Shown here: positions 39,687 through 43,836 of the stretch, in pieces
Numbering within the stretch: the first letter of the stretch is position 1
How the letters are laid out: each line of letters opens with the position of its first letter
DNA from: Psychromonas sp. B3M02
Lineage (GTDB): Bacteria; Pseudomonadota; Gammaproteobacteria; Enterobacterales; Psychromonadaceae
Assembly: GCF_003318165.1 (NCBI RefSeq)
Contig: NZ_QOCB01000060.1
Span: forward strand, 1-46,352
DNA: 46,352 bases
Direction: 5' to 3'
Program-made: the position numbers and the translations under genes
Notes under the pieces: generated by a model
The model's database searches: none
Told to the model about the DNA's origin: nothing
The model's input: only the letters and a program-made list of their open reading frames with translations

Positions 39687-41396
39687 TTACCTCGTTAACA
39701 ATAATCCAATAATAATGAACAGCAACAGCGTACTCATACCTTGCCAAAACACCACGGGTTTACGCTCTATTAAAGGTGCTCGCCCTTTTGCTAAAAACTG
39801 CTTGCTTGGATGCCTTAAATCATAGATAAATTCAGATAACACTGAATAACGATGCTTAGGCTCAACTTGTAAAGCCCGTTGCAAAGTATCATCAATCCAC
39901 AAAGGTAATTCTGTATCAGCAGTAATAATAGGTCGATACCTTAACTTGCGTTGCGCGGATAGGCTCCTAGCCTGTGTTATTTCTGCCTTGTAAGGAAATT
40001 TTCCCGATAACATCTGGTAGGTGATAACTGCAATGGAATAGATATCCGACGCCGCAGTCCCCCACTCACCTAAAAAATATTCTGGCGCAGAATAACGCAA
40101 AGTACCGCGTAACATTTGCTCCTGTTCAACATAACTAACACCAGCAATATAGGTAGAGCCAAAATCAATAATTTTTACCGTATTATCACTATCGATCATA
40201 ATATTTTGTGGGCGTAAATCTTGATGAATCATCTCCTGACGATGAAAGGCTTGCACTCCTTTCACTACCTGCTCAATAATATTACGCACAACTTCCAAGC
40301 TAGGGGTTGGGTTATCGATGATCCACTGTTGCAGTGATTTCCCTTCAATATATTCACTAACAAGGTATACAAAATTTTGCTTGCGATTAGCGTTAATGGC
40401 TTTAGCCACATATGGGTTATTAATGCGCTTTGCAACCCATTGCTCTAACATAAAATGTTCAAGATATTGTTCATCAGTGCGCATTTCCACTGAGGGTGTT
40501 TTAATCACAGCCTGTTTTTGTGTCGTCAGATCTTTAGCTAAAAATACATGACTACGGCTGCTTATATATAACTCCCGTAATATTTGATAACCATCAAATT
40601 CCATTCTTGGTGCTAAATTGGGTGGCATCGGCAGTTGTGTTAACTGATGTACTTCATCTAATTGATAATCGGGTATACTATTTACTCGTACAATTTGAAC
40701 GCTTAAATTATCATTACTGCCGGCAGCCATTGCTTGCACAATAACCTCGTTCGCTGCCTCAGCTAAGTTCGACTTTTGTTGAATAATCTTTGATATTTTA
40801 TAACCATCAATAAACTCGAATACACCATCGGTAGCGAGTATAAACAGATCGTCTTTTTGTATTTGCAAACTTGTATAATCGATGGGTAAGGTTTTATCAA
40901 TTCCTAATGCACGTGTTAAATAACTAACCTCATCGGATACACGTAGACGATGATCTTCAGTAAATTGTTCTAATTGTTCACCCGATAACCGATAGATGCG
41001 ACTATCGCCAGAATGGAATATATGTGCCGTATTAGATTTTAAGATTAATGCACTAAAGGTACAGACATAGCCTTTATTCTTATCAAAACGGTTAGGGCTA
41101 TCTAAGGTTTGTGCATGTAACCACGAGTTAATTGATTTAAGGACAGTTTGCCCCGAACTTTTAACTGACCAAGTATCAGCTGTACAATAATAATCAGCTA
41201 AAAAACTTGAAACTGCTGTTTTACTAGCGATTTGACTCACTTGACTGGAGCTGATGCCATCGGCGATAGCCAGCACCACTCCTTTTGTGCTTAACAAAGG
41301 CTCGTTAGGTATTAAGTGTCCAATGTGATCTTGGTTAATTGCTTTAATGCCTTTATCACTTGCACTACCAATACTCACACTCAATGGTAATCCCAC
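39687..41396 (-). CDS. Bifunctional PP2C phosphatase-Ser/Thr kinase membrane protein
   Basis: One chain holds a PP2C phosphatase (about 1-240) and a Hanks-type kinase (about 270-535), then one membrane helix at the C-terminus (VVFWQGMSTLLLFIIIGLLL). PP2C metal residues appear in NQDHIG, AIADGISS, HSGDSR, ATDGVFE and SNDNLS. The kinase keeps the VAIK-type Lys (AVIKTP), IHQDLRPQNIMID (Gln for the usual Arg of HRD), IDFGSTY and SAPEY. Its glycine loop (ELYISSRSHVFLA) has lost the glycines. I chose GTG 41396, because AGGAGG lies 4 nt upstream and inside the longer TTG reading (41414). It lies 44 bases after the FNT gene. Similar fusions accompany nitrite/nitrate transport genes in Pseudomonas. 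Confidence 0.88.
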   Translation of the reverse strand: MGLPLSVSIGSASDKGIKAINQDHIGHLIPNEPLLSTKGVVLAIADGISSSQVSQIASKTAVSSFLADYYCTADTWSVKSSGQTVLKSINSWLHAQTLDSPNRFDKNKGYVCTFSALILKSNTAHIFHSGDSRIYRLSGEQLEQFTEDHRLRVSDEVSYLTRALGIDKTLPIDYTSLQIQKDDLFILATDGVFEFIDGYKISKIIQQKSNLAEAANEVIVQAMAAGSNDNLSVQIVRVNSIPDYQLDEVHQLTQLPMPPNLAPRMEFDGYQILRELYISSRSHVFLAKDLTTQKQAVIKTPSVEMRTDEQYLEHFMLEQWVAKRINNPYVAKAINANRKQNFVYLVSEYIEGKSLQQWIIDNPTPSLEVVRNIIEQVVKGVQAFHRQEMIHQDLRPQNIMIDSDNTVKIIDFGSTYIAGVSYVEQEQMLRGTLRYSAPEYFLGEWGTAASDIYSIAVITYQMLSGKFPYKAEITQARSLSAQRKLRYRPIITADTELPLWIDDTLQRALQVEPKHRYSVLSEFIYDLRHPSKQFLAKGRAPLIERKPVVFWQGMSTLLLFIIIGLLLTR

Positions 41397-41440
41397 AATA
41401 CCTCCTGTACCCAACAGCCTAAGTTAAACACTTGATGCAA

Positions 41441-42253
41441 TTAACGCATTACACGTTGTGCTGATGTTTTCACGTGTGTGTAATAAAGTGGTAAGCCAAC
41501 TAAACATAAGCCACCCACTAAATTACCCAATACGGTTGGTAACTCATTCCATAACAGATAATCAGTAACAGTGAAGTCACCCCCCATGATCATTGAAAAA
41601 GGAAATAGGAACATATTTACAATTGAGTGCTCAAATCCCATATAAAAGAACAGCATAATTGGCATCCACATTGCCGCCATTTTACTCCCTGCAGAAGTTG
41701 AGATCATAGCGCCCACGACGCCCATTGACACCATCCAGTTACATAACATGCCACGGATAAAGATAGTAAACCAACCACCAACGCCATGGGCTTGATAACC
41801 TAAGGTTCTCGACTCACCAATGGTAGCGACTTTTGCAGCAATCGCACCACCATCTGTCCCATAACCTAAGGTTAGGATAAATGACATCATAAATGCCACG
41901 GTGATCGCACCAAAAAAGTTACCAATAAATACCAGTCCCCAATTACGCATAACACCAGAGAAGGTCACTCCTGGTCGTTTGTCTAATAACGATAAAGGAA
42001 CCAAAGTAAACACACCGGTAAGCAGATCAAATTTCATTAAATAGAGCATGATAAAGCCGACAGGGAATAAACAGGCGCCAAGAATTGCACTGCCGGTTTT
42101 AGTGGCCACGGTTATCGCAAAAACAGCCGCTAAAGCGAGAATAGCCCCCGCCATAAAAGCCCTGATCAAGGTATCTTTCGTGGACATATAAACTTTAGAT
42201 TCACCTGCATCGACCATTTTAGTAACAAATTCACTGGGTTCTAAATATGACAT
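41441..42253 (-). CDS. Formate/nitrite transporter (FNT) family channel
   Basis: Pentameric inner-membrane channel family (FocA/NirC), 270 aa with six hydrophobic segments. GFEHSIVNMFLFPFSMIMG contains the conserved pore histidine; FDLLTGVF and NWGLVFIGNFFGA are other signatures. The cargo could be formate, nitrite or hydrosulfide, and no nir or pfl gene is nearby to decide. The close kinase/phosphatase gene favours nitrite by analogy with the pseudomonad nitrate-assimilation locus. AAGGAAAGG precedes the ATG. Confidence 0.9.
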   Translation of the reverse strand: MSYLEPSEFVTKMVDAGESKVYMSTKDTLIRAFMAGAILALAAVFAITVATKTGSAILGACLFPVGFIMLYLMKFDLLTGVFTLVPLSLLDKRPGVTFSGVMRNWGLVFIGNFFGAITVAFMMSFILTLGYGTDGGAIAAKVATIGESRTLGYQAHGVGGWFTIFIRGMLCNWMVSMGVVGAMISTSAGSKMAAMWMPIMLFFYMGFEHSIVNMFLFPFSMIMGGDFTVTDYLLWNELPTVLGNLVGGLCLVGLPLYYTHVKTSAQRVMR

Positions 42254-42488
42254 AACTACCTTTCCTTAGATTAATTAAAAAACAACCACTTACGTTAATA
42301 CAAAGCACAAACAATGCCACAAACTAAACCATTGATTTATAGCTCATTTTTTTAACGCTATATTTTTAATTCACTAATTTTATACATTTAAAAGTATAAT
42401 AATTTATAATTGCACCAAAATAGAGCGCTAAAATTCAAACGTTAATTTCTAATAACACAAATAACTTACTAGCGACTTAATACTGACA

Positions 42489-42505
42489 TGTCGGTAAAAT
42501 TTACC
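42489..42505 (+). promoter_or_regulatory. Upstream activator motif 1 for the PEP-CTERM gene
   Basis: TGTCGGTAAAATTTACC. It shares 14 of its first 16 bases with the motif at 42636 and lies 210 bp upstream of the sigma-54 -12 element. The pattern TGT..ACA-like and its repetition suggest an enhancer-binding-protein site, probably of the PrsR type linked to exosortase systems. Confidence 0.5.
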
Positions 42506-42635
42506 TAGCATTCAGTTTATTCATTAAATCAACCTATTAGGTTACCTGCCTATAAAAAGTACGTTTTCAGCCTGTATGCCTATTGCTAGGTAGTTTTTAT
42601 GTTAGCTAACAATCTCTAACTCACATAAAACAACC

Positions 42636-42652
42636 TGTCGGAAAAGTTTACA
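42636..42652 (+). promoter_or_regulatory. Upstream activator motif 2 for the PEP-CTERM gene
   Basis: TGTCGGAAAAGTTTACA, second copy of the same motif, ending 63 bp before the sigma-54 -12 GC. This distance is typical for a bacterial enhancer-binding protein acting by DNA looping. Confidence 0.55.
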
Positions 42653-42700
42653 AAAAGTATCATAAAGAAAAATAACTCGAATATAACAACAACTTATAAA

Positions 42701-42718
42701 TTGGTATGTTACTTGCTA
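42701..42718 (+). promoter_or_regulatory. Sigma-54 promoter of the PEP-CTERM gene
   Basis: TTGGTATGTTACTTGCTA has the invariant -24 GG (42703-42704) and -12 GC (42715-42716) exactly 10 bp apart and matches TTGGCAC-N5-TTGCTA at most positions. The ATG is 72 bases downstream. Confidence 0.7.
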
Positions 42719-42789
42719 ATTCCTAGTCGCTGTTGTGACAGATAAACAATGGCATAGGCATTAATAATTGATTTAAAAGGATTTTTAAA

Positions 42790-43323
42790 ATGAAAAAACG
42801 ACTGGGTCTAACCACCCTCTTATTTGCAATGAATGCTAATGCAGCATTAATTAACTTTGAGAGCACAAGTGCAAGTAATAGCGGCGCGCTTATTAACTAC
42901 GATAATGTTGTCACTCCCACTTCCATTGTAGGCGATGCGATTTTTACATTAAATGTTAATGGCGATTTCAACTCTAACTATGAATATGCGGATCTAGTAT
43001 TGAATGGATTTAGTTTAGGACGTATTTTAGATAGTAATACAAGCAATGATTTATTTAATTTTACCAATGATGTCGGTAATCAGTCTATCTCGACCATCAC
43101 AGGAACAGCGACAATCTCAGAGAGCGTTTTCTCGTCATTAATAAGTGATGGTTTTCTTGATTTCTCTTTTGATGCCAGTTCAAGTGTGAATTGTTGCGGT
43201 ACGATCAATGAACTATCTGGAACAATATCTTTCACTGAATCAACATCAATCCCAGAGCCGGCTCCACTTATGTTATTAGGACTGGGTTTATTAGGTTTTG
43301 CAAAATTAAGAAAGAAAAAGTAG
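42790..43323 (+). CDS. PEP-CTERM sorting-domain protein
   Basis: Exported protein of 177 aa. The N-terminal signal peptide ends near ANA (residues 16-18). The body is low in charge and rich in Ser, Asn, Thr and Asp (NSNYEYADLVLNGFSLGRIL). The C-terminus is a classical exosortase signal: PEP at 155-157 (SIPEPAPLMLLG), a hydrophobic helix, and a basic end KLRKKK. An exosortase would cleave it and probably anchor it to, or release it with, exopolysaccharide. No exosortase gene is in the window. An AAAAGGA ribosome-binding site is present. Its sigma-54 promoter and paired upstream sites fit the known link of such proteins to RpoN. Confidence 0.9.
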   Translation: MKKRLGLTTLLFAMNANAALINFESTSASNSGALINYDNVVTPTSIVGDAIFTLNVNGDFNSNYEYADLVLNGFSLGRILDSNTSNDLFNFTNDVGNQSISTITGTATISESVFSSLISDGFLDFSFDASSSVNCCGTINELSGTISFTESTSIPEPAPLMLLGLGLLGFAKLRKKK

Positions 43324-43419: not shown

Positions 43420-43836
43420 TTATAACAAGCGCGCCACTTTATCCTTATTCACATCTGTAGCAGTATTCGCTATGGTTTGTACATTGTCGTCGTCAAGATC
43501 AACCCTATTACCTGTGTGCTCGAAAATAGCTTGTTGAATTTTTTCATTAGTCATTTCACCTTCAATTTTCACAATATTATTGTTTTCTTTTCCATTTGAA
43601 GCAGAGCCTCCCGGCAAGTAAATAGTGCCATTACTAAAATCCACTGCGAAGGCAATCACACCAGGCACTAAAAAAAACAATAAGCCAATGGCATTTAGAG
43701 CAACGATACTGGCATCCAGTTGCCCAGCGCTTTGCCCTTTTCTCTCTGGTTTAAGGATTGTGCCACAACCTGACAATTGAATACTTAACCCCACTATTAA
43801 TGGTAATGCAATGCGCTTTTGTATTTTTATATTCAT
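43420..43836 (-). CDS. Small conserved lipoprotein
   Basis: Predicted lipoprotein of 138 aa with lipobox IQLSGC (C24). The mature part opens GTILKPERKGQSAGQLDASIVALNAIG, then a hydrophobic stretch (about 47-66) and VDFSNGTIYLPGG; the tail is Asp/Asn-rich. I recognise it as a conserved marine gammaproteobacterial protein without known function (homologues have carried misleading polynucleotide-phosphorylase names). The second hydrophobic stretch suggests a double membrane contact. It is monocistronic. Confidence 0.72.
   Translation of the reverse strand: MNIKIQKRIALPLIVGLSIQLSGCGTILKPERKGQSAGQLDASIVALNAIGLLFFLVPGVIAFAVDFSNGTIYLPGGSASNGKENNNIVKIEGEMTNEKIQQAIFEHTGNRVDLDDDNVQTIANTATDVNKDKVARLL

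Follow-up and report, generated by a model that had tools for sequence, protein, structure and literature searches.

The analysed stretch of DNA, hereafter called the window, comprises 46,352 nucleotides of Psychromonas sp. B3M02. It contains a gene for a PEP-CTERM protein, preceded by two predicted PrsR boxes and a sigma-54 element and separated by an intergenic region of 536 bp from a divergent transporter gene. The features are as follows:

42790 to 43323, plus strand: gene of a PEP-CTERM protein (177 aa, tail IPEPAPLMLLGLGLLGFAKLRKKK), from the open reading frame and family profile matches
42701 to 42718, plus strand: sigma-54 -24/-12 element (motif 2), TTGGTATGTTACTTGCTA, with an exact GG-N10-GC
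42636 to 42652, plus strand: predicted proximal PrsR box (motif 1), TGTCGGAAAAGTTTACA
42489 to 42505, plus strand: predicted distal PrsR box (motif 1), TGTCGGTAAAATTTACC
42411 to 42427, minus strand: tentative NtrC-like site for the divergent promoter, agreeing with 9 of 12 positions of the NtrC consensus
42303 to 42320, minus strand: divergent sigma-54 element before the transporter gene, GTGGCATTGTTTGTGCTT, probably outside the PrsR unit
41441 to 42253, minus strand: formate/nitrite transporter gene, the divergent neighbour, from the open reading frame and family profile matches

The product of the gene at 42790-43323 scored above the curated cut-offs of TIGR02595 (22.3 bits, cut-off 16) and PF07589 (28.1 bits, cut-off 20.7), which agrees with the PEP-CTERM identity proposed in an earlier note on this DNA. 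The same note described the gene as standing alone, and the open reading frames on both sides (41441-42253 and 43420-43836) are indeed located on the minus strand. The predicted structure of the 177-aa protein is beta-rich with a helix at the C-terminus; its mean pLDDT was 56 and the model was therefore too poor for a fold search. Beside the transporter gene, an open reading frame on the minus strand (39687-41414) encodes a 575-aa product which by eye resembles a fusion of a PP2C phosphatase and a Ser/Thr kinase.

In the sigma-54 element, GG (42703-42704) and GC (42715-42716) are separated by ten bases, exactly the spacing that had been claimed for it. Transcription would presumably start at 42727-42728 on the plus strand, about 12 nt past the GC, a position expected from the geometry of sigma-54 promoters. 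The start codon lies 71 nt past 42718. The two boxes are identical in 14 of 17 positions, end with TTTACA (proximal) and TTTACC (distal), and are placed 147 bp apart from start to start, corresponding to 14.0 turns of 10.5 bp. Counted from the end of each box to the G at 42715, they are located 63 and 210 bp upstream of the -12, as had been reported earlier. The proximal box ends 50 bp from the GG, with 48 nt between it and 42701. In order to score these elements, leave-out matrices were derived for boxes and promoters, with six further PEP-CTERM genes of the genome as the source and the tested gene excluded. On both strands of the 46-kb window, the distal and the proximal box ranked first and second (17.6 and 17.1 bits, next match 11.5 bits). 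The promoter at 42701-42718 was second among the sigma-54 sites of the window, the top site being found at 42320-42303 on the minus strand before the divergent gene. Scans for sigma-70 promoters and terminators gave matches no commoner than those in shuffled sequences.

A search of 23 further genomes of the genus (E 1e-10) gave a single orthologue of the gene, in genome G021, with a protein identity of 78%. The distal box is kept there in 14 of 17, the proximal box in 15 of 17 and the promoter in 15 of 18 positions, and the gaps of 197 and 50 bp are the same as in the window, with the DNA between the elements being 50% identical (65/130 and 24/48). Loose matches to the box are common across the genome and a loose 16-base pattern with up to two mismatches showed no genome-wide enrichment (40 matches compared with 76 for the reversed control), as would be expected if the motifs were chance matches in AT-rich DNA; the matrices were used instead for this reason. 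However, the leave-out ranks, the conservation in G021 despite a diverged background and the shuffle controls make an origin by chance exceedingly improbable, and the observation of two boxes together with a sigma-54 element was confirmed as real.

The ungapped pattern TGTCGGWWWWWTTWACA with at most one mismatch had 13 matches in the genome compared with 5 for the reversed control. An identical end of 161 bases is common to contigs C78 and C125 (L052 1-161 and the end of L056), so that the box at C78:64 is the same as the C125 box and the two contigs are probably adjacent in the genome. The matches represent 12 distinct places, seven of which are upstream of PEP-CTERM genes. Around C13:9392, which is inside a coding region, and around C70:4520, C76:8205, C89:36015 and C94:62110, box-promoter pairs reaching 20 bits were not detected. 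The match at C70:4520 is located between open reading frames resembling, by eye, parB and a gene of the ATP-synthase cluster. Exact box matches in the 24 genomes of the genus amounted to 30, compared with one for the reversed pattern; 28 of them occur in the 16 genomes with PrsR and two in genomes without it (G006 and G019). A repeat-like sequence with two mismatches from the loose 16-base pattern, TGTCGGCTAATTTCAC, is present in four copies within about 0.8 kb in another place (G000:C1:13314-14132).

The genes which the earlier note had suggested looking for elsewhere in the genome, prsK, prsR and an exosortase gene, were all found above cut-off. PrsR is encoded at C146:80831-82150 (678.7 bits, cut-off 502.6). 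The gene for PrsK (448.5 bits, cut-off 300) belongs to this cluster too, with four genes separating prsK from prsR. RpoN is also present (502.9 bits, cut-off 277.35), so that the link between PrsK/PrsR and RpoN put forward in that note fits this genome. The exosortase was recognized by PF09721 (170.8 bits, cut-off 25.7) and by the general exosortase model TIGR02602 (145.4 bits, cut-off 105.55); with the XrtA model it scored 173.3 bits, below the cut-off of 208. Of the XrtA system, the chain-length and the export proteins scored above their cut-offs, the associated tyrosine kinase below. The gene adjoining prsR encodes a PrsT-like TPR protein (275.1 bits, below the cut-off of 312.2), and contig C146 carries the genes for PrsR, PrsK, the PrsT-like protein, one exosortase and polysaccharide genes. 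Also adjoining prsR is a gene for a 426-aa product (L048 10189-11466, minus strand) without an NCBIfam match at 1e-5.

Of the 24 genomes of the genus, 16 have both PrsR (E 1e-120) and PEP-CTERM proteins (E 0.05) and the other 8 have neither. Three of these 8 fall short of 90% completeness; among the 21 genomes that are at least 90% complete, both are present in 16 and both absent in 5. This concordance bears on the idea that the boxes are bound by a sigma-54 activator other than PrsR, for which six other places in the genome offer candidates, as they resemble the PrsR model strongly (312.8-395.6 bits), all below the cut-off. Since the over-cut-off PrsR tracks PEP-CTERM genes in all 24 genomes, and since the site corresponds to the element described by Haft et al. 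2006 (PMC1569441), from whose phylogenetic profile PrsR had been identified, such a different activator is very unlikely.

Ten PEP-CTERM matches over the family cut-off were found in the genome, seven of them with a box and a promoter. At an eighth gene (L045) the promoter is present and the contig ends just above it, and two genes (L037 and L043) have neither element. According to the earlier note, the motif pair should recur before other PEP-CTERM genes. The outcome was in favour of the note, a box with a GG-N10-GC element at matching distance being present at six of the nine other genes; if two boxes were meant by the pair, none of these six promoters showed a second one. The genus set consisted of 118 PEP-CTERM genes, namely the 10 own genes and 108 of 140 matches in 15 other genomes, the 32 omitted matches being mostly weaker ones. 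With matrices from the own genome, pairs of at least 20 bits were detected at 77 of the 108 non-own genes compared with 0/540 shuffled and 0/108 reversed sequences, and with a stricter cut per element at 76/118 genes, including 7/10 own ones. The phylum sample consisted of 199 genomes including the own one; all 55 PEP-CTERM matches (E 1e-4) in 11 other genomes were examined. By mismatch scoring, with a consensus written after the genus data had been inspected, a pair was found at 36 of these 55 genes (3/275 shuffled), with none of the seven G169 genes among them, and at 96/118 genes of the genus set (14/590 shuffled), resulting in 132 box-promoter pairs among 173 PEP-CTERM genes.

Tandem boxes occur elsewhere in the genus. 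A further box of at least 12 bits, above the first and in the same orientation, was found at 13 of the 76 paired promoters, the one in the window included, compared with 4/760 in shuffled sequences, which indicated that tandem boxes are real; a second box in opposite orientation occurred at 1/76. The phase of the second box relative to the first was not significant (mean cosine 0.15, 13 boxes).

The distal box is located 168 bp from the divergent sigma-54 element, which scored highest among the sigma-54 sites of the window, is directed towards the transporter gene and is kept in G021. One could thus suppose that the distal box, or both boxes, serve the transporter promoter and that the intergenic region acts as a shared two-way PrsR switch. 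A total of 92 transporter upstream regions were collected (12 of 26 matches in the genus and the best 80 of 591), giving 87 regions of at least 280 bp, own region included, after two evident duplicates had been dropped, though more duplicates may remain. Only two of them, that of the window and the orthologous one of G021, had a PrsR box of at least 13 bits, and boxes were absent from the other 22 of the 24 genus transporter regions. In contrast, 53 of the 87 regions have a sigma-54 site (23/870 shuffled), and in 34 of them this site is preceded at 60-160 bp by an NtrC-like site (2/870 shuffled). As PrsR boxes are rare and sigma-54 and NtrC-like sites common upstream of these transporters, the transporter seems to be under its own control. 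The boxes in the window are, furthermore, oriented as before PEP-CTERM genes, and a two-way switch is accordingly unlikely. The distal box as a part of the transporter promoter was set aside, because the sigma-54 site of the relatives comes without PrsR boxes.

The distances of the NtrC-like sites leaned to a periodicity of 10.5 bp (R 0.42, p 0.0015). At the cut applied, the G021 copy lacked an NtrC-like site, and a 90% identical transporter paralogue of the own genome (C14) had neither a sigma-54 site nor a box. A 6-5-6 layout is common to the NtrC consensus and the PrsR box. Judged by sequence, the divergent sigma-54 site is probably of the NtrC type, and the 536-bp intergenic region houses two sigma-54 promoters, probably with different activators.

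The distances from box to GG in the 132 pairs form a ladder of 50-55, 61-66, 70-76, 84 and 94 bp with rungs about one helical turn apart, and with two exceptions of 137-138 bp. The 96 genus pairs are distributed over 50-53 (15), 61-65 (64), 70-75 (10), 84 (2), 94 (3) and 137-138 bp (2), the promoters with the last gap having a nearer box at 62-63 bp; the 36 phylum pairs fall at 51-55 (12), 62-66 (20), 74-76 (3) and 84 bp (1). When each protein cluster was represented by one distance, the median, the 49 of 58 genus clusters with a pair gave 50-53 (10), 61-65 (31), 70-75 (7) and 94 bp (1), and the 28 of 43 phylum clusters 51-55 (8), 62-66 (16), 74-76 (3) and 84 bp (1). The zones 56-60 and 66-69 together contained 0/49 genus and 1/28 phylum clusters. 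The phase coherence at 10.5 bp was 0.77 in the genus and 0.81 in the phylum, compared with means of 0.13 and 0.17 after each distance had been shifted by up to 5 bp (p ≤5e-5 each); part of this coherence is carried by the tight main peak. The off-peak distances are also in phase with the main peak (mean cosine 0.62, p 2e-4, 15 clusters of the matrix-scored genus set). One off-ladder gap of 39 bp appeared at a laxer cut (pairs of at least 20 bits). The proximal gap of the window promoter, 50 bp, lies at the low edge of a rung.

The orientation of the box is also fixed in the genus set, for which matrix scoring gave 76 forward and 0/118 reverse pairs. Loose mismatch scoring, the method by which the phylum set was scored, gave reverse pairs at 20/118 genus and 6/55 phylum genes, compared with 16/590 and 4/275 shuffled; at least 4 of the 14 that were inspected (8 genus and 6 phylum) were TGT...ACA boxes which can also be read forward (L060, L066, L177 and L183). 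These sequence comparisons suggest that the proximal box must be separated from the promoter by an integral number of helical turns and must face one way. The discrete distances and the one-way asymmetric box point to a rigid short-loop contact of PrsR with the sigma-54 polymerase. Across Proteobacteria, PrsR enhancers are thus likely to be phase- and direction-locked (at about 53, 63, 73, 84 and 94 bp) by such a contact rather than freely movable. The published spacer, with a mean of 62.8 and an S.D. of 10.6 (Haft et al. 2006, PMC1569441), would fit such a ladder. In the accessible part of that text, a word search returned nothing on whether the spacing is helically phased, periodic or oriented, and no paper joining PEP-CTERM with helical phasing was found in the literature searched, which left subscription papers mostly outside. 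The phase and orientation rule for PrsR boxes is possibly new.

The sites, their conservation and the presence of the regulators in the genome make it highly probable that the window promoter is a target of PrsK, PrsR and RpoN, which supports the reading given in the earlier note. The sigma-54 RNA polymerase would bind to 42701-42718 as a closed complex. PrsR, an NtrC-type activator, would be phosphorylated by the kinase PrsK and would oligomerise on the proximal box at 42636-42652, aided by PrsR at the distal box (42489-42505). It would then loop the short DNA and open the promoter with ATP, and because this loop is short, the proximal box would need an integral number of helical turns to the promoter and a single direction. 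The gene product would be exported and its PEP-CTERM tail handled by the exosortase of the genome. For the activation of PEP-CTERM surface protein genes, the mechanism predicted in 2006 is supported here with independent genomes, and the spacing ladder is a sharp, testable rule by which PrsR targets might be predicted more precisely.

The element is of a known, previously predicted kind, to which a proposed phase and orientation rule is added. The accessible part of Haft et al. 2006 (PMC1569441) describes a two-part element, a predicted PrsR site and a sigma-54 site, before proteobacterial PEP-CTERM genes: a 17-nt motif 1 ending with TTTACA and sometimes repeated, a motif 2 with GG/GC, and a spacer ranging from 32 to 92. 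The window shares the 17-nt box with this ending (proximal), the GG/GC of motif 2 and, with 48 nt, a spacer within that range. The published genes stand alone with more than 200 nt of non-coding DNA upstream and a start codon on average 71 nt past motif 2; the window gene also stands alone, with 536 nt of non-coding DNA upstream and its start codon at the same 71 nt. As in the genomes of that description, PrsK, PrsR and an exosortase are present, the element occurring before 7 of the 10 PEP-CTERM genes. However, prsK and prsR were reported there to lie close together in every one of 13 genomes, in 12 of them in tandem, whereas four genes lie between them here. Tandem boxes were noted there in R. 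rubrum; two boxes 147 bp apart and conserved in one orthologue go beyond the description as far as its accessible text reaches.

A precedent for this kind of regulation is found, in the accessible parts of two papers, in pepA, which is RpoN1-dependent with a mapped start and a -24/-12 element in Aquincola tertiaricarbonis (PMC9850573) and, according to PMC9012009, under RpoN and PrsK-PrsR in Zoogloea resiniphila. The window gene is likewise a PEP-CTERM gene, here with a predicted RpoN promoter; unlike PepA, its 177-aa product scored 32.7 bits with the PepA flocculation model NF033554, below the cut-off of 80. As far as can be taken from the accessible part of PMC7408454, activator boxes upstream of the -24/-12 element are shared with NtrC-activated sigma-54 promoters, at one of which, nifLA of K. 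pneumoniae, a dependence on the face of the helix is known (Minchin et al. 1989, as cited there). According to the same source, the NtrC sites of glnA function at distances that begin at 70 bp and reach 1000 bp or more, whereas the PrsR boxes stand on discrete rungs and, in the genus, in one orientation.
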